DNA of 64,000 bases from Acidimicrobiales bacterium (GTDB lineage Bacteria > Actinomycetota > Acidimicrobiia > Acidimicrobiales > SHLQ01), in contig JAHDCX010000014.1 of assembly GCA_020629635.1 (NCBI GenBank), positions 1-64,000 of the forward strand, written 5' to 3'. Position 1 is the stretch's first letter; each line of letters begins with the position of its first letter. The notes below the pieces were generated by a model. That model did no database searches, was not told the origin of the DNA, and saw only the letters and a program-made list of their open reading frames with translations. Shown piece by piece: positions 8,210 through 20,038 of this stretch. Position numbers and translations under genes: made by a program.

Positions 8210-8560
8210 ATGCGCCGCGTGTTCGTCGTACTCGCCTTTGCCCTCACCGCAGCTGCCTGCACCAGCGAAGGCCTCCCGAATTCCTACGCCGACCAGGACG
8301 GTCGGGCGGAGACCCAGTTCGTCGAGGCCTGCCAGAGCGCGCTCGCCGACTCCGACGTCGACGATCCGGTCGAGTACTGCCAGTGTGCGTTCTACACCGT
8401 TGCCGCAGATCTGTCGTTCGAGGAGTTCCTTGCGCTCGACGAACGCCTCCGAGACGATCCGGCAGCGCTGTCGCTCGAAGAGCGGACCTTGCTCGAAGGC
8501 GTGAACCTTCCGTGCGAGTTCACCGCCGCCGACATCAACGCTGCCGTTTCCAGCAGCTGA
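8210..8560 (+). CDS. Small putative lipoprotein
   Basis: This 116-residue protein begins with a short signal peptide that ends in the lipobox AAAC at residues 15-18, so the mature protein should be lipid-anchored outside the membrane. The mature part is acidic, about 98 residues, with three further cysteines (EACQSA, EYCQCAF) and one near the end (LPCEF). No domain is recognised. It starts seven bases after the glycosylase stop and may share its transcript. Its 3' end is two bases from the convergent coiled-coil gene. Confidence 0.7.
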   Translation: MRRVFVVLAFALTAAACTSEGLPNSYADQDGRAETQFVEACQSALADSDVDDPVEYCQCAFYTVAADLSFEEFLALDERLRDDPAALSLEERTLLEGVNLPCEFTAADINAAVSSS

Positions 8561-8562
8561 TC

Positions 8563-10944
8563 TCAGCCGTTCGCCGAGCCGATCTCGGGGAACTCCGCGA
8601 GCGCCTCCGGAGACAACGCGTTGATGACCGCACGGGCCTGCTCCCGATGTTGGCCAACGAGCGCCCACATCTCCGCAATCCTGGCTCGCTCTTCTTCGAG
8701 CGATCGCTCTTCGGCGGCGAGGCGCTTGCGGATCTCGTCGAGGTGAATGCGCTCGGCATCGAGACGCTTCTTCTCTTCTGAGTTGTCCTTGCGAATCGCA
8801 TCGAGACGCCCGTTGTCCGCCGCGAGCTCGGTTTCGTAGCGGTCGAAGTCGAGCTGCTGGGCGTTGAGGGTCTCGCGTCGCTCGGCGACGATTGCCGACA
8901 GCTTTCGCAGTTCGGCCTCTTCGCCCTTGAGGCCCTCACGTCGAGTGTTCAGGTCGGCCTGGAACTCCGACAGCTGTGCGGCCTCCGCCTCCGCCTGGCT
9001 CTCGGCACGCTCGACTTCGGTTTGTTGCATCGCCAGCGATTCGAGTTTGTCGTCGAGCACGGCCCGATCTCGTTCGTGCTGGCGAGCGCGATCGTCGAGA
9101 ATGTCGCTCTCCTCGTCGAGCTGGCGCCGACGTTCCACGAGCTGGGATTGCTGACGGTTGATGAACTCGCTCTGCTCATTCAGCTGCTTGCGCTGCTCGG
9201 CGAGCGCCTCGCGAGAGTTGTCGAGCGCCGACTTCTCGGCTTCGAGGTGGTCTCGTTGCTCTGCGACCATGCTGCGCTGATCGTCGAGCGCCGTCGCCTC
9301 TCCGGCCAGCTGGGCTCGCTCATGCTCGATTTGAGCCCGTTGGCGTGAGAGCAGCGCTGCGTCCTGATCGAGCTGTGCGCGCTCGGCATCGAGCGTCTGC
9401 ATTCGAGCGGTGACCTCCGCCACCTCTGCAGCGGCGCTCTCGATATCGGCCTGGGACGCGTCGAGCTGCGTGCGACGACCATCGAGGTCGGTCGCTCGAG
9501 AATCGAGGGCGGCGGCGTCGTCATCGAGCTTGGCACGGCGAGCACCGAGCTCGGCTTCTCGACCGTCCAGATCGGCCATCGTGGTGTCGAGTTGGCCCCG
9601 ACGTTCATCGAGCGCTGCGGTCTCGCTGGTCAGCTCGGCAGCTCGCTCGTCGAGGGAGACTCTGCGCTCCTCGATCTCCACGAGGCGAGCATCGAGCTCA
9701 GCGGCGGTTGCTTCGGCAGCGTCGATCTCGGCTCGGCGCTCTTCGTTGCGGGCAAGGATGCGGTCCCGTTCGAACTCGAAGTCCGCCTCGAGCGCAGCGA
9801 GTGCTCGCTTGTGGGCGTCGGCGATCTGGCGCTCTTTGCTCTGGAACTCGGTTTGCTGTTCCGCAAGCCGGTCTGCGGTCTCCGAGATCGACTTCTGGAG
9901 GCCCTCGAGTTCGCCCTGACGCTGCTTGAGATCGGCTTCTGCCGATGCGAGCCGCGCCTGCGTCGCAGCCGCCTTGGACGAGCGCTCGGCATCATCGGCG
10001 GCCTGATCGAGCGCGTCGACCTCACTCTGCATGGCGATCCGAGCCTCTTCGAGGTCGGCCTTGGCTGCGTCGATCGAGTCTCGGAGAGCTTGGACCTCGG
10101 CTTCTTCTGCCTGCAGCCTCGATCGTTCCGCGGCCAGATTGGCCTGAGACTCTCGGATGCGGTCGAGCTCAGCCCGTTCGGTTTCGAGCTCGGTACCGAG
10201 GGCCGCCAACTGTTCGCGTTCGGCGTCGAGCTCGACTCGCTGTGCGGCGAGCTGGTCCTTTTGCGCCTGGATCTCGGTCCGGAGTTCGGACGTCTCGGCG
10301 TCCGCCGACGACTCGAGCTCCGATGCGGCGCTGTCGACGGAGCGGCGACGCGCCGCCAGCTCGAGCTCGAGGGCTTCGATGTCGGCGGCGTCCTTCGCGA
10401 GGGTCTCCGCACGGCGTTCGAGCTCGTCGCGGTCGCGATCCAACCCCGCGCGTGCAGTCTCGAGGGCGGCGTACCCAGCGTCGACCTCGGCTTGATGACG
10501 GATGAGGTCTCGCTTCGCTCGCTCGGCTGCTTCGATCTCTTCCATCGACGGAGCGCCGGCCGCAGAGGCCACGGCGCCGGATGATTCCTGATCCAACTGC
10601 GCCTTGCGCATGTCGAGCGACTCCCGCTCGAGCGAGCGACGCCGCTCGGTCATCTCGGTCTCGGCCGCGGCGAGCTTCGTCCGGTGGTCCTCGACCTCCT
10701 TGCGACGACGCTCGATGTCCGAAGCCAGCTGGTTCAGGTGTCCGCGGGCCTCCTCGATACGCGCCAGTTCGGCGCGCTGGTCGGCCTGCGTACGTTCGAT
10801 CTGCTCGCGGAGCTTGGTGAGTTGCTGCTGTCGTGCGAGGAGCAGCTCTTCTTCGTTGTCGAGCGACGTGTTGGCGCGCTCGACGCGCATGCGTCGTAGG
10901 CGCTCGCTCGCGTCGTCGTCGGCACTCGTGATGTCGTCAGCCAT
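8563..10944 (-). CDS. Large coiled-coil protein (paralogue of the next gene)
   Basis: The 793-residue protein is almost wholly coiled coil, with long runs rich in Glu, Arg, Leu, Gln and Ala and repeated units such as AELDERRA and LDERRGQLD. The Asp/Glu-rich start MADDITSADDDASERLRR leads straight into heptads, with no signal peptide or membrane helix. Only the last 40 residues leave the pattern: ERARIAEMWALVGQHREQ and a short tail. The same end motif (ER-x-R-x3-W-A-x-V-x2-H-R) closes the neighbouring 1015-residue protein, so the two are tandem paralogues. A filament- or scaffold-forming role is likely by analogy with bacterial coiled-coil cytoskeletal proteins, but unproven. The ATG at 10944 is preferred; an earlier in-frame start at 10980 adds 12 residues. 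Confidence 0.82.
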   Translation of the reverse strand: MADDITSADDDASERLRRMRVERANTSLDNEEELLLARQQQLTKLREQIERTQADQRAELARIEEARGHLNQLASDIERRRKEVEDHRTKLAAAETEMTERRRSLERESLDMRKAQLDQESSGAVASAAGAPSMEEIEAAERAKRDLIRHQAEVDAGYAALETARAGLDRDRDELERRAETLAKDAADIEALELELAARRRSVDSAASELESSADAETSELRTEIQAQKDQLAAQRVELDAEREQLAALGTELETERAELDRIRESQANLAAERSRLQAEEAEVQALRDSIDAAKADLEEARIAMQSEVDALDQAADDAERSSKAAATQARLASAEADLKQRQGELEGLQKSISETADRLAEQQTEFQSKERQIADAHKRALAALEADFEFERDRILARNEERRAEIDAAEATAAELDARLVEIEERRVSLDERAAELTSETAALDERRGQLDTTMADLDGREAELGARRAKLDDDAAALDSRATDLDGRRTQLDASQADIESAAAEVAEVTARMQTLDAERAQLDQDAALLSRQRAQIEHERAQLAGEATALDDQRSMVAEQRDHLEAEKSALDNSREALAEQRKQLNEQSEFINRQQSQLVERRRQLDEESDILDDRARQHERDRAVLDDKLESLAMQQTEVERAESQAEAEAAQLSEFQADLNTRREGLKGEEAELRKLSAIVAERRETLNAQQLDFDRYETELAADNGRLDAIRKDNSEEKKRLDAERIHLDEIRKRLAAEERSLEEERARIAEMWALVGQHREQARAVINALSPEALAEFPEIGSANG

Positions 10945-11028
10945 CGGCGGGGTCTCCAGCAATCGTTCGACCGAAAGCATAGGTCGTGAACGGCTTCACC
11001 CCGATAGTCGGCGCCTCTCGACGAACGC

Positions 11029-14000
11029 TCAGCGATCGAGGATCGAGCGGGGCGGCTCGGTCAGGTCGATCACGGGCTCCGCTTCGTCACCGTCGGACTG
11101 GCCAACGGAGGACACGAAGCCGGCCGTTTTGCGACGATGATCCTCGACCATCGCCCACAGCTCGTCGAGCCGCTGACGCTCGCGTTCGATTGCGGCCGAG
11201 CGCTCTTCGAGGGCCTTGCGGCGAACCTCGAGCTCGCGGTCGTCGGACTCCAGCGTCTCGCGGGTCACTGAGTTCGCCTGCTGGCGGTCTTCGAGGAGCT
11301 GCTCATCCCGACGCAGCTCCGCGGTGCGAGCCTCGATGGACTCGCCGTCGGCCTCGACATCGGCCCACCGTCGTCGCAGGTACTCGGCGCGATCCGCAAG
11401 CTGTTGGACGTTCTCGTCGAGCGCACGACGACGATTTCGAGTCTCGATCTGTTCGGTTCCGAGCGATGCGGCGTCCTCGTCCTGCACGCTGCGCTCCGCA
11501 TCGATCACGGATCGCTGGCTGTCGAGCCGCATGACGGCGTCTTCGACGCTCGCCCGCTCGGCGGCAAGGAGCGCCCGGCGCTTCTTGATGAGGTCGGCGT
11601 CGTCGTCGAGGGCGCGGTTTTCGGCGTCGACCTGACGCTGGCGCTCCTGGATGGACCGCTCGGACAGCGCAACGCGTTCGCGTTGCTCGGCCAAGGCAGC
11701 CCGTTCGGCGGTGACCGAGTCGCGCTCTTCACGAAGGACGCGGTGTTCTTCGTCGATCCGGTCGGCCTGCACCCGGAGATCCTCGGACTGTCCGGCCAAC
11801 GCTGCACGCTCGTGCTCGATCGATTCGCGCTGGCGGGCGAGCAGCAGCAGTTCGTGCTCGACGTCGTCGCGTTCATTCTCGAGACGGGCGATGAGGCGCT
11901 CCGCCTTCTCGAGTCGTTCGTGGTCAGAATCGAGTGCACGAAGCTGCTCGTCGAGCTCAGCACGAGCCTGCACGAGGGCGTGATCCCGCTCGGCGACGTC
12001 TCGTTCCTGCGCCGCGAGAGCGTCGACACGTTCGTTCAACCGGTGGGCGGTCGAGCGGATCTCTTGATCAAGCGCGTCGAGCTCGGCGACGTGGCCCTGC
12101 TGTTCTGCCCGCCGCTGGTCCAGAGCCAACTCGAGTGCATCGAGATCCCGCGACGATGCATCGAGTCGCGCCGCCCGATCGTCGAGCTGGCGTTGCTCTT
12201 CGTCGAGAGCTCGAAGTCGCTCGGAGAGGTCTCGCTGCCGATCATCGAGCGCCGATCCGAGTTCGTCGAGCTCCGCGCTTCGGCCGGTCAATCCCTCGCG
12301 CCGCTGGTCGAGCGACGCTTCGAGTTTGCGGACTTCTTCGGCGTCGATGTCGAGTGCCGCCCGCTCGCCGTCGAGCTCGACGCGTCGCACGGCCAGGTCC
12401 GCCCGGACCGACTCGAGCTCGGCATTCTCTTCGGCGATCGCCGCTGCGGCGGTCTCGAGCTCGTGCTGTCGTCGTTCGAGGGCGATCTCCCGGTCGTCGA
12501 GTTCGGTGACTCGCCGCTCGAGCTCGTGGGTCTCCTCGGTCCGCGACTGCAGAACCTCGTGGCGACCTTCGATCTTCGCCATGCGTTCGGCGATCTCTCG
12601 CTCGAGCTCGTCGAGTTCGGCCGAGCGAGCGGCCATCTCCGCAGCACGTTCGTTGAGCGCGTCGACGTCGACGCGGCGAGCGGCCACGTCGGCCTCGAGG
12701 CGGTCGATCTCGTCGGACTGCTGCCCGAGGATCCGGCGCTCTGCCTCGATGTCGGAGCGTTCGACCTCGAGCTCCTCACGGGCGCCGGCGAGTTGGTCCG
12801 CCTCCGCACCGAGCGCAAGTCGTTGCCTTTCGAGCTTCTCCGCAAGTGCGTCGAGTTCGGACTCTTCGTTGCGGAGCGATTCGGAGCGCGCGCCGATCGA
12901 CGACTCGAGGCGCAGCAACTCGGTCTCTGCCTCGTCGGCTGCCGCCGCGCTCAGTTGGGCGTGCCGGGACTCCATCTCGGCGCGTTGTTTGTCGAGGTCG
13001 TCGTGCTGCTTTTGGAGTACCGCACGTTCGTCGGCGATCGCTGCACGTTTCGCATCGAGTTCGTGTCGCTCGCCCTCAATCGTCGACCGAAGCGATTCGA
13101 GCTCCGTTGCCTGGTCGGCCAACTCGCTCGACCGGCTCGCCAATCGAGCGCCATCACGGTCGAGGTCTGCTTGGAGTTTCTCGATCCGGAGCTGTTCGGC
13201 GATGGCGGCCTCGCTGGCCGTCGCGACCATCTCGCGCCGGGCATCGAGCTCCTGGGTGCGCGCCGCGATGAACGCCTCCTGCTGGGCGAGCTCGCCGTTG
13301 AGGTCCTCGAGCGCAACGGCGCGGTCGTGAGCCTGATCGACTCGTTCGTCGAGTGACAGTTCCTCTTCTTCGAGTCCGCGAGCCCGGAACTCGAGCTCGT
13401 CCTTCTCCTTGTCGAGGCGCTCACGAACTTCGATCAGCTTCTCCTCGAGCTCGTGCAGCTCTTCCTGTTCGTTCCGGATCCGGGCCCGTTCGGAGCTGAG
13501 CGACTCGAATTCGGTCATCGTCTCCGATCGCCGCCGCTCCGTGCCTTCGAGCATCGCCTCGAACTCGGCCTCTTCTGCGAGGTGGGCGGCTCGGCGCTCT
13601 TCGAGGGTGGTGCGGGCTTCGTCGAGCGTTTCGCGCTGGGTGTGAAGTTCGTTGACGTCGGCGACGATCTGCTTGGCTTCGGCGTCGGTCGCCTGCCGAA
13701 GGCGGTTGACGTCGCGAATCCGCTCTTCGAGTGCCGCTTCTTCGGTCAGGAGATCGGCGCGGACATCTTCGAGTTCGGATTGTTGTCCGGCGAGCATGGA
13801 CCGGACGGAGTCGAGATCGCGACGCTGGTCGTCGAGCTGGGCCCGCTCGGCGGCGAGCTCGTTGTGTCGAATCACGAGCTCGGTCGCTTCGGCGTCTGCA
13901 CGGTCGAACTCGTCGTCGAGACCGGGGACGGGGGGTGGCAACGGGCGCTCTTCGAGGCCGCCACGGCCCCAACGGTCGGCCGACGGGGCGCCGAGGGTGT

Positions 14001-14076
14001 GGTCCTCCGGTCGACGCCACGGGTCGTCATGCGACGTCGTGCCGGTGTCGTCGCTCGGCTGATCGGTCGGTGGCAT
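11029..14076 (-). CDS. Very large coiled-coil protein
   Basis: The 1015-residue protein has a Pro/Asp-rich, probably disordered N-terminus of about 70 residues (through LPPPVPGLDDEFD), then about 880 residues of nearly unbroken coiled coil, then ERQRLDELWAMVEDHRRK and a short acidic tail. It resembles the downstream 793-residue paralogue in composition and in the Trp-containing end motif. The frame is open to 14247, but the longer form would overlap the tRNA-Arg gene, so the ATG at 14076 (MPPTDQPS) is chosen. It is transcribed away from argS. A structural role in cell shape, division or polarity is inferred from composition only. Confidence 0.82.
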   Translation of the reverse strand: MPPTDQPSDDTGTTSHDDPWRRPEDHTLGAPSADRWGRGGLEERPLPPPVPGLDDEFDRADAEATELVIRHNELAAERAQLDDQRRDLDSVRSMLAGQQSELEDVRADLLTEEAALEERIRDVNRLRQATDAEAKQIVADVNELHTQRETLDEARTTLEERRAAHLAEEAEFEAMLEGTERRRSETMTEFESLSSERARIRNEQEELHELEEKLIEVRERLDKEKDELEFRARGLEEEELSLDERVDQAHDRAVALEDLNGELAQQEAFIAARTQELDARREMVATASEAAIAEQLRIEKLQADLDRDGARLASRSSELADQATELESLRSTIEGERHELDAKRAAIADERAVLQKQHDDLDKQRAEMESRHAQLSAAAADEAETELLRLESSIGARSESLRNEESELDALAEKLERQRLALGAEADQLAGAREELEVERSDIEAERRILGQQSDEIDRLEADVAARRVDVDALNERAAEMAARSAELDELEREIAERMAKIEGRHEVLQSRTEETHELERRVTELDDREIALERRQHELETAAAAIAEENAELESVRADLAVRRVELDGERAALDIDAEEVRKLEASLDQRREGLTGRSAELDELGSALDDRQRDLSERLRALDEEQRQLDDRAARLDASSRDLDALELALDQRRAEQQGHVAELDALDQEIRSTAHRLNERVDALAAQERDVAERDHALVQARAELDEQLRALDSDHERLEKAERLIARLENERDDVEHELLLLARQRESIEHERAALAGQSEDLRVQADRIDEEHRVLREERDSVTAERAALAEQRERVALSERSIQERQRQVDAENRALDDDADLIKKRRALLAAERASVEDAVMRLDSQRSVIDAERSVQDEDAASLGTEQIETRNRRRALDENVQQLADRAEYLRRRWADVEADGESIEARTAELRRDEQLLEDRQQANSVTRETLESDDRELEVRRKALEERSAAIERERQRLDELWAMVEDHRRKTAGFVSSVGQSDGDEAEPVIDLTEPPRSILDR

Positions 14077-14186
14077 CCCTACTCCGTGGTCGGTGGGGCT
14101 CGGTGAAACGGCTGTTTCGGGTGCGCCCCTGCCCGAGAGTAGAGAAGACCGCCCCCGAATCCAAAAGCGGCGGGACTGCGTCGCGG

Positions 14187-14261
14187 TGGCGCCCTCGGCA
14201 GGATTCGAACCTGCGCTCACGGCTCCGGAGGCCGATGCTCTATCCACTGAGCTACGAGGGC
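14187..14261 (-). tRNA. tRNA-Arg (anticodon CCG)
   Basis: On the minus strand a full cloverleaf can be drawn: acceptor GCCCTCG with CGAGGGC, D arm GCTC-AGTGGATA-GAGC, anticodon loop CTCCGGA (anticodon CCG, reading CGG arginine codons), and T arm GCAGG-TTCGAAT-CCTGC. A discriminator G and an encoded CCA end at 14187. The outermost anticodon-stem pair is a T-T mismatch. It lies between the coiled-coil gene and argS, whose enzyme charges it. Confidence 0.93.
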
Positions 14262-14354
14262 TGGGCGTCGATCCGAGCGGGGCTCGACGACGCGCCCACC
14301 CTAGCGGCGAACCGTTACGCTTGGCGCCTCATCGCGGCGATCTGGGAGGGCCTC

Positions 14355-15983
14355 GTGATCCAGGAAACGCTTCGGGCAGCGCTCGCTGACGCCGGAGTCG
14401 CCGAGGGCCTCGACGTGCCCGCCGAAATCGGTCTCGAACGCCCCGCCAACCCCGACCACGGCGACTGGTCGTCCAACCTGGCGATGGTGTGTTCGAAGCA
14501 GGTCGACGGACCGCCTCGAGACCTCGCAGCGCGGCTGGTCGAACGGCTCGGGGCGGCGAGCATCGGGCACGTGCGTGGCGTCGAGATCGCCGGGCCGGGC
14601 TTCATCAACTTCCGCCTCGACGACGGATGGCTCCACGACGTGCTCGTTTCGGTCCACGAGGCGGGCGTCGACGGGTACGGGCGGTCGGCGGTCGGAGCGG
14701 GCCGGTCGATCAACGTCGAATACGTCTCCGCCAACCCGACGGGTCCGCTCCACGCCGGCCACGGCCGGGGAGCCATCTATGGGGACGCCGTGGCGTCGTT
14801 GCTCGAGGCGACTGGGTGGGACGTGACCCGGGAGACGTACATCAACGACCGCGGCACGCAGATGCAGACCTATGCGGACTCGCTGACGGCGCGTGCGGCT
14901 GGCGAGGAGCCGCCAGAGGGCGGCTACATGGGTCAGTACATCGCGGACTGGGCGGCCGAGATGCCGGCCGACGCCGACGCCCTCGAGTGGGGCTACGCAC
15001 GGGCCCTCCAAGACCAGCGTGAGGTGCTCGACGCGCTCGGCATCACCTTCGACGTCTGGTTCAGCGAGCGGTCGCTCGTCGGCGACGGCGCGATCGAGGA
15101 TGCGCTCGAGCGGCTCAGAGCCCGAGAGATGGTCTATGAGGCCGACGGTGCCGTGTGGCTGCGCAGTACCGAGTTCGGGGATGACAAAGACCGAGTTCTC
15201 GTCCGGAGCAACGGCGAGTTCACGTACCTGACGCCCGACATCGCCTACCACGCCCAGAAGTTCTCCCGCTCCGACGAGTTGATCAATGTGTGGGGTGCCG
15301 ATCACCACGGCTACATCGCCCGAATGAAAGCGGCGATGGCTGCCCTCGGTCAGAACCCCGACGCGCTCGACGTGCGCGTCACCCAGATGGTCAAGCTGAT
15401 GCGCGACGGCGAGGAGGTGAAGTTGTCCAAGCGGACGGGTGACATCGTCGAACTTCGAGACGTCGTCGACGAGGTCGGTGCGGACGCGACCCGATTCACC
15501 TATCTGCTCCAGTCGGTCGACAGCCAGCAGACGTTCGACCTTGCGCATGCGGCCTCCAAGCAGATGGACAACCCCGTGTTCGGGACCCAGTACGCGCACG
15601 CCCGTCTGCGTCGGATCGCGGATGTACGTGCCGCAGAGGTCGGGGTCACGCGTGGCCCGATCGAAGACGCGGACCTGTCGCTGCTCACCCAGGCCCGTGA
15701 GCTCGAGATCCTCCGGGTGCTCTTCGACGGACCCGGCATGGTCGAGCTCGCCGCGGCCGAACGTGCGCCACACCGGCTCGTGCAGTGGGTCCGGGATCTC
15801 GCGTCGGCGGTCAACAGCTGGTATCAGGACGACGAATGCCGGGTCATCTCCGAGGGCAACTCGGCCGCGCTGACCCAGGCGCGGCTGCAACTGGTCGAAG
15901 CCGCCCGGATCGGTCTCGCGGCCGGCCTCGGCATCCTCGGCGTGGGCGCACCCGAGTCGATGTGGATGGACGAGGCCGAGTGA
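14355..15983 (+). CDS. argS: Arginine-tRNA ligase
   Basis: ArgS attaches arginine to tRNA-Arg. The 542-residue protein has the class I HIGH motif as HAGH at residues 133-136 inside SANPTGPLHAGHGRG, the KMSK loop as KLSKRTG near residue 360, and a C-terminal anticodon-binding helical domain ending in PESMWMDE. The N-terminal additional domain of ArgS is present. A GTG at 14355 is chosen: it is preceded by GGGAGGG at 14344-14350 and gives the normal N-terminus, while the open frame back to 13731 crosses the tRNA gene and the antisense of the coiled-coil gene. The stop overlaps lysA as GTGA. Confidence 0.95.
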   Translation: MIQETLRAALADAGVAEGLDVPAEIGLERPANPDHGDWSSNLAMVCSKQVDGPPRDLAARLVERLGAASIGHVRGVEIAGPGFINFRLDDGWLHDVLVSVHEAGVDGYGRSAVGAGRSINVEYVSANPTGPLHAGHGRGAIYGDAVASLLEATGWDVTRETYINDRGTQMQTYADSLTARAAGEEPPEGGYMGQYIADWAAEMPADADALEWGYARALQDQREVLDALGITFDVWFSERSLVGDGAIEDALERLRAREMVYEADGAVWLRSTEFGDDKDRVLVRSNGEFTYLTPDIAYHAQKFSRSDELINVWGADHHGYIARMKAAMAALGQNPDALDVRVTQMVKLMRDGEEVKLSKRTGDIVELRDVVDEVGADATRFTYLLQSVDSQQTFDLAHAASKQMDNPVFGTQYAHARLRRIADVRAAEVGVTRGPIEDADLSLLTQARELEILRVLFDGPGMVELAAAERAPHRLVQWVRDLASAVNSWYQDDECRVISEGNSAALTQARLQLVEAARIGLAAGLGILGVGAPESMWMDEAE

Positions 15984-17591: not shown

Positions 17592-18634
17592 GAGACGTCG
17601 GCCTCGACGATGCGGTTCGGGCGATTGCGCGGTGGGAGCTTCCGGGCGTCGAGGCCGATCAGATCGTCCACGTCGAACCTCACCACGTGGCCGCCTTCGT
17701 GAGCGCGCTTGCCGCCGAACGGGTGGTCGGCGTCGCAGCGGCAGCGGCCGACTCTGGCGACCTCGTCGGCCCGGCCGTGGAGGCGGTCGTTGCTCGTCAT
17801 GACGAGACGATGGCGTCGACCCTGCGCGTCGAACGCACCGGTATTCGGGTGAGCACGCTCCTCGGCGAACGGGGCATCGATCACCGTCTCCTGAAGGGAA
17901 CGGCGCTTGCTCACACTGTGGTCGCGGACCCCAGTCAACGCGAGTTCCGCGATGTCGACGTGCTGGTTCGGAGTCGGGACATCGATCAGACGGTTGCCGC
18001 GCTCACTGGCGCCGGAGCCGCCCGTCGCCGACCGGAGCTGCGACCCGGATTCGATCGACGGTTCGCCAAATCGGTGACGATGCGACTCGACGGGGTGGAG
18101 GTCGACGTGCATCGGACGCTGGCGCCTGGCCCGTTCGGGCTGTTGGCCAAACCCGATGATGTGTTTCTCCATCCCGATCACGTGTCGGTCGGCGGTGTTC
18201 TGCTCCCGACCCTCGATCGCACCGACCACCTCGTGCACGCGCTGTACCACGTCGCGCTCGGCGGACGGCGACCCGTGATGACCAACCTTCGAGATGTCGT
18301 TCTGCTCGCCGATGGACCGATCGATCGTGATCGTCTGGATGAAACGGTGCGTCGTTGGGAGGGCGGAGCGGTCATCGACCGGGCGTTGAACCTGCTCGAC
18401 GAAGTGGTCGACATCGTCCCGCCGGCGCTGGCAGCGCTCCGACAGACGCTCGATCTCGGCCGGGCCGAGCTCATCGATTGCTACACGGTGGAGACGGACC
18501 GATTCCGTGCGATGGCGCGTGCCTCGTTCGGTGTTCTGCCCATCTCGGACCGGGCCGCGTTTGCCCGCGCCGTCGGGCTCCCGGACGATTCGTCGCCCAC
18601 GCAGGCGCTCAGAAAATTCATCCGTCGGCGGTGA
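17588..18634 (+). CDS. Nucleotidyltransferase family protein (NTP_transf_5-like)
   Basis: This 348-residue protein looks like the NTP_transf_5 family of uncharacterised nucleotidyltransferases. The key part is LLKGTALAH followed by REFRDVDVLVR, where the D-x-D pair is the probable metal-binding site, and a third acidic position in GVEVDVHRTL. A long helical C-terminal half follows. It starts at a GTG that overlaps the PqqD-like stop. The same pairing of a PqqD-like protein with this enzyme is known in other bacteria, often near polysaccharide genes, but the substrate is not known. The 3' end overlaps the convergent kinase gene by 17 bases. Confidence 0.72.
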   Translation: MRDVGLDDAVRAIARWELPGVEADQIVHVEPHHVAAFVSALAAERVVGVAAAAADSGDLVGPAVEAVVARHDETMASTLRVERTGIRVSTLLGERGIDHRLLKGTALAHTVVADPSQREFRDVDVLVRSRDIDQTVAALTGAGAARRRPELRPGFDRRFAKSVTMRLDGVEVDVHRTLAPGPFGLLAKPDDVFLHPDHVSVGGVLLPTLDRTDHLVHALYHVALGGRRPVMTNLRDVVLLADGPIDRDRLDETVRRWEGGAVIDRALNLLDEVVDIVPPALAALRQTLDLGRAELIDCYTVETDRFRAMARASFGVLPISDRAAFARAVGLPDDSSPTQALRKFIRRR

Positions 18635-19886
18635 GCTGCTCGCCGAGAGGGTGGAGGTCCGGAGCGGCACAACCGGCGAGATCGACCTCGATGCGGAGGA
18701 CGCCGCTTCTGCCCAGCGGTCGTCCGGTCGTGGTGTTGCCGGGCTCCCAATCTGCAAAGGCGAACCACTCACCCGAGCCAGGCGACCAGACGCCGGGCGT
18801 GACGGTTCCGTCACAGTTCCAGTCGCCCACCGCGACGACGTCACCGCGTTCGGCCAGAAGAAACTGTTCGCCCGAGCCGAGCACGGTCACCACGCCGGAT
18901 TCGGCGTCGAAGTCGACGCCATGTGCCTCGAGGGTGTCGGTGGGCGTGTGGAGCGTGGCGGGGGAGTCTTCAGCGCGGTCGTGCGCCGACGTTGCGCGGT
19001 TCGTTTCGATCAAGGCACCGACGAGCGCAAGGGCGCCGATGACCACGGCTGCGACACCGGCTCGGGGGATGCGACGGTGCTCGCGGTCGACGACGTGGGT
19101 GGGACGACCCGGACCGAAGTCGCGTGTGGGACCCCACGAACCGGGCCTACCGGGCGGGCTTCCGCCGGTCGTCGGCCCGGTTGATCCAGTCGTTGGTCCC
19201 GCGACGAGGATTGGCGACCGGGGCACGTCGACGAACACGTTGGCGACATCAGAAAGTGACGCGTCGACGCCGCTGTCGATCCTTGCGAGGACGTCGTCCA
19301 ACTCGTTTCGGAGGTCGCCTCGTCGATCATGTCTCGGGGTCTCGCCGAGGAAATACGACGCCAGAGCGGCGACGGCGCGAACGTCGACCTGGTGCGTCGC
19401 CGTGACCAACGACCCGACGGCGGCGCTCGTCCCGCCAGCCAGTGCGGCCCCGTCGGCGGGGACCGCAGCGCCGAAATCCATGAGTGCGATCGATCCATCG
19501 CTTCGGAGGCCGACATTCGACGGCGACACATCGCCGTGGATCCACCCGGCTTCGTGGATGGGGGCGAGCGCAGCGGAGAGCTGGTCGATGACGGTCGCCA
19601 CGACCGCGACCGGCATCGGTGCGTCGGCGTGGTGAGCAAGCGTGGAATCGAGTCGCTCGAGCACGAAGCTCCCGTCGCGCATCGACGACGCGATGCGCAC
19701 GACATGGGGGTGGGCGAATCGTCGCAGCAGCGCGGCTTCACGACGGCCGTCCTCGCTGCGGTGCGGTCGCTTGATCGCCACCTCCACCAGACCATCTGGG
19801 CTCGCGATCGTGGCCGACACCACGGTTCCGTCCCGACCGGATCCAATGACCGCGTCGAGCGTTGGAGACGAAACAGTTCGTTGCAT
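18618..19886 (-). CDS. Membrane-anchored Ser/Thr protein kinase-like protein
   Basis: The 422-residue protein has an N-terminal eukaryotic-type kinase domain: glycine loop GSGRDGTVVSA (residues 15-25), ATP lysine K39, catalytic loop HGDVSPSN with D119, and DFG at 137-139. The loop reads HGD, not HRD, as in small-molecule kinases and some bacterial protein kinases, so its target could be unusual. A Gly/Pro-rich linker, one membrane helix near residues 280-296 (GVAAVVIGALALVGALIE) and an outside domain of about 120 residues follow. That domain includes GDWNCDG and SPGSGEWFAF, resembling FG-GAP-like repeats. The start at 19886 is chosen because it lies just before the kinase domain. Confidence 0.8.
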   Translation of the reverse strand: MQRTVSSPTLDAVIGSGRDGTVVSATIASPDGLVEVAIKRPHRSEDGRREAALLRRFAHPHVVRIASSMRDGSFVLERLDSTLAHHADAPMPVAVVATVIDQLSAALAPIHEAGWIHGDVSPSNVGLRSDGSIALMDFGAAVPADGAALAGGTSAAVGSLVTATHQVDVRAVAALASYFLGETPRHDRRGDLRNELDDVLARIDSGVDASLSDVANVFVDVPRSPILVAGPTTGSTGPTTGGSPPGRPGSWGPTRDFGPGRPTHVVDREHRRIPRAGVAAVVIGALALVGALIETNRATSAHDRAEDSPATLHTPTDTLEAHGVDFDAESGVVTVLGSGEQFLLAERGDVVAVGDWNCDGTVTPGVWSPGSGEWFAFADWEPGNTTTGRPLGRSGVLRIEVDLAGCAAPDLHPLGEQLTADG

Positions 19887-20038
19887 GCCCTGAACATACA
19901 GGGAAGCATGAAATATATTCAAATGACGTAAGCGATGCTCGCTCGTGTCCGAAGGTGCTCGGAGGGAAATGCCGACGGGGTTGGACGGGCTCCAAGACGT
20001 GGGCCAGTAGCGTGAGCACATGATCAGGAGCGGCCGCC

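Follow-up and report, generated by a model that had tools for sequence, protein, structure and literature searches.

The window, a stretch of 64,000 nucleotides at the start of contig JAHDCX010000014.1 from an Acidimicrobiales bacterium (GCA_020629635.1), harbors two adjacent genes for long coiled-coil proteins, here termed CC1 and CC2. We suggest, with about an even chance of being right, that CC1 and CC2 are soluble paralogs with segmented coiled-coil rods, probably encoded on one transcript, which would assemble into an intracellular scaffold of the intermediate filament (IF)-like kind. Coiled-coil scaffolds are hard to classify, since composition alone makes them cross-match. The pair presents a fairly clean case, in that its paralogy was tested against shuffles and controls, its birth likely took place at a known locus and a length constraint marks the part that may matter. 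As such, it represents a defined and testable candidate scaffold in the Acidimicrobiales. An earlier note, made from the letters of the window, had described genes for 793- and 1015-residue proteins beside tRNA-Arg and argS, and the open reading frames (ORFs), the tRNA and argS were all located. The parts of the pair, all on the minus strand, are as follows:

8563..10944, minus strand: CC1, a coiled-coil rod protein of 793 amino acids (ORF list, coiled-coil prediction, starts of relatives)
11029..14076, minus strand: CC2, a coiled-coil rod protein of 1015 amino acids (ORF list, coiled-coil prediction, starts of relatives)
8614..9357, minus strand: fixed-length terminal rod segment of CC1, residues 530-777 (ungapped against CC2 744-991; anchor-to-Trp distance of 230)
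11104..11847, minus strand: fixed-length terminal rod segment of CC2, residues 744-991 (ungapped against CC1 530-777)
8644..8691, minus strand: end motif ER-x-R-x4-W-x5-HR of CC1, residues 752-767 (invariant tail positions)
11134..11181, minus strand: end motif ER-x-R-x4-W-x5-HR of CC2, residues 966-981 (invariant tail positions)
10639..10899, minus strand: conserved N-terminal rod block of CC1, residues 16-102 (dense invariant alignment columns)
12694..12855, minus strand: conserved interior block of CC2, residues 408-461 (paired by hhalign with CC1 residues ~138-193)
11062..11073, minus strand: short C-terminal peptide VIDL of CC2, in the non-helical tail (kept in relatives)

Paralogy, rod architecture and length constraint

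Because coiled coils look alike through shared composition, paralogy was assessed with shuffles that preserve the predicted heptad position of each residue. The CC1 and CC2 proteins of the window match at 12.4 standard deviations (sd) over 200 shuffles, and those of nine other genomes at 5.4-14.6 sd over 60 shuffles. Four control coiled-coil proteins, with two comparisons each, gave -0.8 to 2.4 sd; these controls are presumed unrelated and are few, as three of them (L043, L045 and L048) derive from one genus and may form one family. Comparison of the CC1 and CC2 profiles returned a probability of 99.9 (E-value: 5e-33; 574 columns), a value inflated by composition, and the final 257 aligned residues of the pair are gap-free. 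When the end motif is left out, the diagonal joining the two conserved tryptophans is the best ungapped offset in 7/10 genomes, the third in 2/10 and the 47th of 451 in relative L034; its z-score against other in-register offsets ranges from 0.9 to 3.3, and outside the motif no individual 49-residue window exceeds 1.7. The shuffle test makes the stronger case for paralogy than this diagonal. In a tree of the terminal segment, the ten CC1 and ten CC2 proteins fall on opposite sides (support: 100/100), with the CC2 proteins of L034 and the window forming long branches. Since the tree splits all CC1 from all CC2 proteins, the duplication most likely predates the radiation of the genus. On sequence evidence we take CC1 and CC2 to be paralogs, and the shuffles, profile comparison and tree support beyond chance the earlier proposal that they are duplicates which diverged in length.

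The same note had described both proteins as almost all coiled coil, and this is borne out by a COILS-style prediction (own script), which assigns 88.7% of CC1 and 86.1% of CC2 residues to coiled coil. The fraction lies between 0.84 and 0.90 across ten CC1 and between 0.75 and 0.88 across ten CC2 proteins. Hydrophobic residues recur with a peak period of 3.49 in both window proteins, which corresponds to a heptad; in 20/20 proteins the peak lies at 3.48-3.52 and the power at period 3.5 is 5.0-14.5 times that at 3.667. AlphaFold monomer models (ten sequences each for CC1 and CC2; mean predicted local distance difference test score: 77 and 67; predicted template modelling score, pTM: 0.25 and 0.23, respectively) depict CC1 as a helical rod in segments 12-123, 134-315 and 319-777, and CC2 as one in segments 60-592, 602-737 and 754-991, with short breaks in each. 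A low-confidence joint, at residues 523-525 of CC1 and 741-757 of CC2, opens the shared terminal segment in these models, and in both proteins the end motif is placed in the C-terminal 25 residues of the helix that closes the rod.

This Trp-containing end motif, which the earlier note had pointed out, is present exactly once in each of the 20 proteins (ten CC1 and ten CC2), with four residues before the tryptophan; the spacing of three given in the note was one residue short. The window form reads ER-x-R-x4-W-A-[LM]-V-x2-HR, and the positions that are invariant over 16 tails (E, R, R, W, H and R) reduce it to ER-x-R-x4-W-x5-HR. All ten CC2 proteins also carry a VIDL, VVDL or FIDL peptide within their last 70 residues.

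The distance from the anchor to the motif tryptophan is 230 residues in 10/10 CC1 and 9/10 CC2 proteins, counts that are not independent, as genome pairs G006/G008 and G007/G010 are close relatives; in the CC2 of L034 it is 195 residues, five heptads shorter. The terminal segment of CC1 has no gap in any genome, and the total length of the protein varies from 657 to 917 amino acids. Together with the N-terminal block, this segment is the most conserved part of CC1, with conservation per 25 residues of 0.77-0.88 at residues 526-775, 0.80-0.82 at 26-75 and 0.37-0.65 at 101-525. In CC2 conservation peaks at residues 426-450 (0.86), followed by 726-750 (0.74) and 401-425 (0.73).

Distinct gap runs are multiples of seven in 6/21 cases for CC1 and 10/22 for CC2, where about one in seven is expected, the counts being aligner-dependent. 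The spacing between the two conserved blocks of CC2 is 329 or 371 residues (47 or 53 heptads) in 9/10 proteins and 254 in L034. Against a strict heptad rule, both the span from N-terminal block to anchor in CC1 and the N-terminal span of CC2 differ from those of the window by a non-multiple of seven in 9/9 relatives.

Ratios of nonsynonymous to synonymous substitution rates (dN/dS; Nei-Gojobori method, own script) were derived for three species pairs, the third of which has a dS above 1, and amount to 0.036, 0.032 and 0.089 for CC1 and 0.033, 0.041 and 0.113 for CC2. The neighboring genes gave 0.032 and 0.013 (etfA) and 0.008, 0.031 and 0.014 (phosphatase). Both coiled-coil genes are clearly under purifying selection, which is looser than that on the etfA and phosphatase neighbors in the most distant pair. 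The earlier note had allowed for a pair that is not expressed; the purifying selection argues against this, short of proving expression. An artefact, whether a spurious frame in GC-rich DNA or a likeness of coiled-coil composition only, has a negligible probability. Long antisense frames do occur at the CC1/CC2 locus and many unrelated models pick up coiled coils, but the sense-frame dN/dS of 0.03-0.11, the paralogy test with its control coiled coils and the invariant W and H of the end motif all speak against it.

Candidate scaffold role and known coiled-coil families

In the proposed scaffold, CC1 and CC2 would be soluble proteins transcribed together, which dimerise via their rods and assemble into a cytoplasmic filament, bundle or mesh. 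An assembly or docking end would be provided by the terminal segment and the Trp motif it carries, the variable remainder of the rod would act as a spacer and the C-terminal peptide of CC2 as a putative docking site for a partner, and the scaffold may play a role in cell shape or polarity. Pfam scans of the ten CC1 and ten CC2 proteins (E-value cut-off: 0.01) recognised no enzymatic or anchoring domain, in agreement with the earlier description of filaments lacking membrane anchors. The matches that were obtained, namely FBF1 in three CC1 proteins (19.9 bits against a cut-off of 45 in the window), TPR_MLP1_2 and OVT1 in two each, and RNase_Y_N in one CC1 and one CC2 protein, were taken as coiled-coil cross-matches and rejected as identities. 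Likewise, all NCBIfam matches up to an E-value of 0.1 (SMC, HmpF, ASRP, Rad50, FlbB and others) fall under the curated cut-offs.

Several observations weigh against this proposal. The models are of monomers with pTM values of 0.23-0.25 and so hold no prediction of assembly. The charges at g-e' positions, compared in nine genomes (L034 left out), reveal no consistent preference among CC1-CC1, CC2-CC2 and CC1-CC2 pairing, with L041 favoring and L035 and L036 disfavoring CC2-CC2, and the predicted heptad registers of the two proteins agree over just 35-61% of the terminal segment. Conservation of the fixed-length segment in CC2 (0.40-0.64) is not above that of the rest of the protein, and in the third species pair both genes evolve faster than the phosphatase gene (0.089 and 0.113 vs 0.014). 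A promoter search of positions 8300-14500 returned no match, so that the shared transcript is argued from strand and spacing. Furthermore, the pair fills no obvious gap, because in the genome of the window MreB is matched three times, twice strongly and once more weakly, and DivIVA four times over cut-off. One of the DivIVA matches (G000:C33:156271-156441; L107) lies in a 736-residue open frame, which is long for DivIVA.

A different role for such rods is that of a long tether or ruler, in which dimers would hold two structures (pole, nucleoid, envelope or organelle) apart or together, in analogy to SMC arms or golgins minus their end domains. The helix lengths in the models correspond to rods of ~115-140 nm. 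The conserved ends of CC1 and the fixed length of the terminal segment count in favor of such a role, as do the top NCBIfam and solved-structure matches of CC1, which are SMC proteins but weak or under cut-off; a solved-structure search with the CC1 profile gave seven weak matches (best E-value: 1.5e-5), four of them to SMC proteins. However, Pfam finds neither an ATPase head nor a DNA-binding or membrane domain. Membership of SMC/Rad50, which carry ATPase heads at both rod ends, is not supported, as no ATPase domain was matched at an E-value of 0.01 in the CC1 and CC2 scans and the NCBIfam model SMC_prok_B reaches 79 and 64 bits where 567 are required. The total CC1 length of 657-917 amino acids is unexpected for a whole-rod ruler, and the top NCBIfam match of CC2 is HmpF rather than SMC. 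We regard a tether as an unlikely alternative, albeit one to be taken seriously.

CC1 and CC2 resemble FilP/Scy and crescentin in type rather than in demonstrated ancestry. Among known pairs, Scy-FilP of Streptomyces comes closest, yet CC1 and CC2 do not belong to that family. As described in excerpts of PMC9858780, Scy is a FilP paralog of about four times its size which is encoded close to FilP, so that, as here, actinobacterial coiled-coil paralogs of unequal length lie close together, and hendecads are reported for the rods of both. The DivIVA-like superfamily (DivIVA, GpsB, FilP and Scy) is described there by an N-terminal GY[DN]xx[QE]V[DN] motif preceding a dimeric heptad coiled coil. 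CC1 and CC2 differ in lacking the GYDxxEVD-type N-terminal motif, in being heptad rather than hendecad proteins and in having their own C-terminal end motif and other gene neighbors. The DivIVA-type motif, and even GY[DN], is absent from 23/23 proteins (ten CC1, ten CC2 and three from sister genus g4), and Pfam DivIVA had no match at an E-value of 0.01 in the CC1 and CC2 proteins. The NCBIfam Scy model (NF041483, growth_prot_Scy) had no match at this threshold in the genome of the window, the control genomes likewise yielding none over cut-off and thus providing no positive control, and it is absent from the CC1/CC2 NCBIfam matches up to an E-value of 0.1. These absences, the heptad period and the differing neighbors count against a polar scaffold bound to DivIVA that would stand in functionally for Scy-FilP. 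The actinobacterial order, the DivIVA matches in the genome and the paralogous, unequally sized and closely encoded nature of Scy and FilP (PMC9858780) are in its favor, and it is left with a low probability.

Crescentin and other IF-like rod proteins share with CC1 and CC2 the segmented coiled-coil rod and short non-helical ends. Crescentin is shorter than either protein, and its Pfam rod (PF19220) had no match at an E-value of 0.01 in the ten CC1 and ten CC2 proteins. Both window proteins have the structure by which excerpts of PMC2680258 define IF-like candidates, namely a coiled coil of over 80 residues, continuous or with short interruptions, in a protein that has no recognised functional domain; three actinobacterial candidates assayed there made filaments. 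A literature search on coiled-coil or cytoskeletal proteins of the Acidimicrobiia and Acidimicrobiales returned no report of such a protein beyond a mention of an acidimicrobial DivIVA in the excerpts of PMC9858780.

A more specific version of the scaffold would make CC1 and CC2 obligate partners of a two-component, keratin-like filament born at this locus in one Acidimicrobiales family. One coiled-coil gene would have arisen, its duplication would have preceded the radiation of the genus, and the equal 230-residue segments would have been kept for in-register assembly, with the rest of the rods freer in length. Eukaryotic IF pairs also combine paralogous rods, a rod segment that keeps its length and a motif conserved at the helix end. 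The fixed segment of CC1 and CC2 is ~250 residues long, and the likeness to type I/II intermediate filaments is drawn by analogy alone, with no homology claimed. In-register co-assembly would require segments of equal length, but common descent would account for them as well; we consider obligate partnership improbable.

Distribution and origin of the locus

The CC1/CC2 pair is lineage-restricted within the samples searched. A full CC1 query matched 14/40 genomes, with ten strong matches (E-value: 2e-111 or better), all in the genus of the window, and four weak ones, three in sister genus g4 and one (G038) in another family. A profile of the tail gave two matches in each of 10/19 genomes of the family, all belonging to the same genus and making up 10/11 of its genomes. 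The locus is probably missing from the assembly of the eleventh (G002; given as 85% complete), because an argS match is also absent there. In the order sample 15/397 genomes matched, nine of the genus and six others with weak and partial matches (E-value: 0.001-0.009), and the phylum sample of 396 genomes held no match at an E-value of 0.001 besides the genome of the window itself; in both, up to 17 first-look candidates were scored per genome, such that remote relatives could escape. A scan with two peptide patterns across contigs of 84,980 species found nine loci, all in uncultured Acidimicrobiales. Where both genes occur they are adjacent (10/10 genomes, G006 included). The family, order and phylum searches hence agree, as far as sampled, with the earlier view that the proteins are peculiar to their lineage; the end motif that the note proposed to seek in other Acidimicrobiia is conserved in 10/11 genomes of the genus, and in this genus only.

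In three of the four g4 genomes a single coiled-coil gene (751-807 amino acids) is located between tRNA-Arg and an FrhB/FdhB-like gene, with further frames between the tRNA and the coiled-coil gene in L044; in the fourth (G016) the contig ends ~2 kb from argS. This gene occupies the same locus as CC1 and CC2, between tRNA-Arg and the uracil-DNA-glycosylase and phosphatase genes, and is likely homologous to them, judging by its similarity to both (4.6-7.2 sd over shuffles; hhalign probability: 97.4-97.6). It differs in lacking the W/HR motif, in an N-terminus with a proline-rich stretch and in the FrhB/FdhB-like gene that follows, and the tail profile of the pair misses it. Used as a query, it hit only g4 among 148 genomes of the order (six candidates scored per genome). 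Twenty further stretches upstream of argS, including that of G016, were inspected, of which eight are cut by contig ends. The twelve uncut stretches hold no long coiled-coil gene, the one frame of note being of 82 amino acids in L082 (score: 0.34), and four of them (L082, L089, L092 and L094) extend to the far-side gene block. The series of absent, one and two genes fits an origin in this family with a later duplication.

FrhB/FdhB-like genes (F420 hydrogenase/dehydrogenase beta) at the argS locus were observed in g4 (L044: 8391-9599, +; L046: 10031-11239, +; L047: 5440-6609, -) and in L094 (9392-10561, -), and the genome of the window carries FrhB/FdhB elsewhere (G000:C15:371688-372845). A second large coiled-coil protein is encoded elsewhere in g4 (L045:5093-7903, -; L043:6683-8989, +; L048:6256-8946, +). 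The L045 protein has a hydrophobic start (by eye) and scores 107.5 with the Pfam crescentin rod (gathering threshold: 100), and that of L043 scores 91 and adjoins an OmpA/BON-domain protein.

Gene neighborhood of the pair

CC2 precedes CC1 in the same orientation, 84 nucleotides away. The chosen start codons of both agree with the starts of relatives; an alternative ATG at 10980 is possible for CC1, the ATG at 10944 being the better fit. In the window and in 9/9 fetched relatives, the pair adjoins a small gene (judged by eye to encode a lipoprotein, with no match in Pfam), a gene of the uracil-DNA-glycosylase superfamily and a histidine phosphatase gene, with DUF3090 and etfA genes following (identified by Pfam in the window). 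On the other side lies the tRNA:

14187..14261, minus strand: tRNA-Arg(CCG), preceding CC2 in the same orientation (a neighbor, not judged part of the system)

Beyond it, argS is divergent from the pair, on the plus strand, with its ORF ending at 15983 and with Pfam arginyl-tRNA synthetase domains. The recurrence of a nearby tRNA-Arg(CCG) and of argS on the same contig in 9/10 genomes could point to a scaffold linked to translation or to the synthesis of arginyl-tRNA. This is highly improbable and the link looks incidental, because G006 keeps an intact pair although its argS is on a different contig and its stretch yielded no tRNA, and argS and tRNA-Arg(CCG) share one stretch devoid of the pair in 11/12 other genomes scanned. 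Both are probably mere neighbors of the pair. The tRNA lies upstream of argS in L077, L080-L082, L087, L089, L090 and L092-L095, though not in L086, at ~0.1 to 8 kb in these 11/12 stretches, a neighborhood that is independent of the coiled-coil genes.

Further along the window, an ORF at 18618-20021 on the minus strand contains a protein kinase domain (Pfam Pkinase; score: 50.3 bits, cut-off: 31.7), followed by a long C-terminal part with no Pfam match at an E-value of 1e-5.

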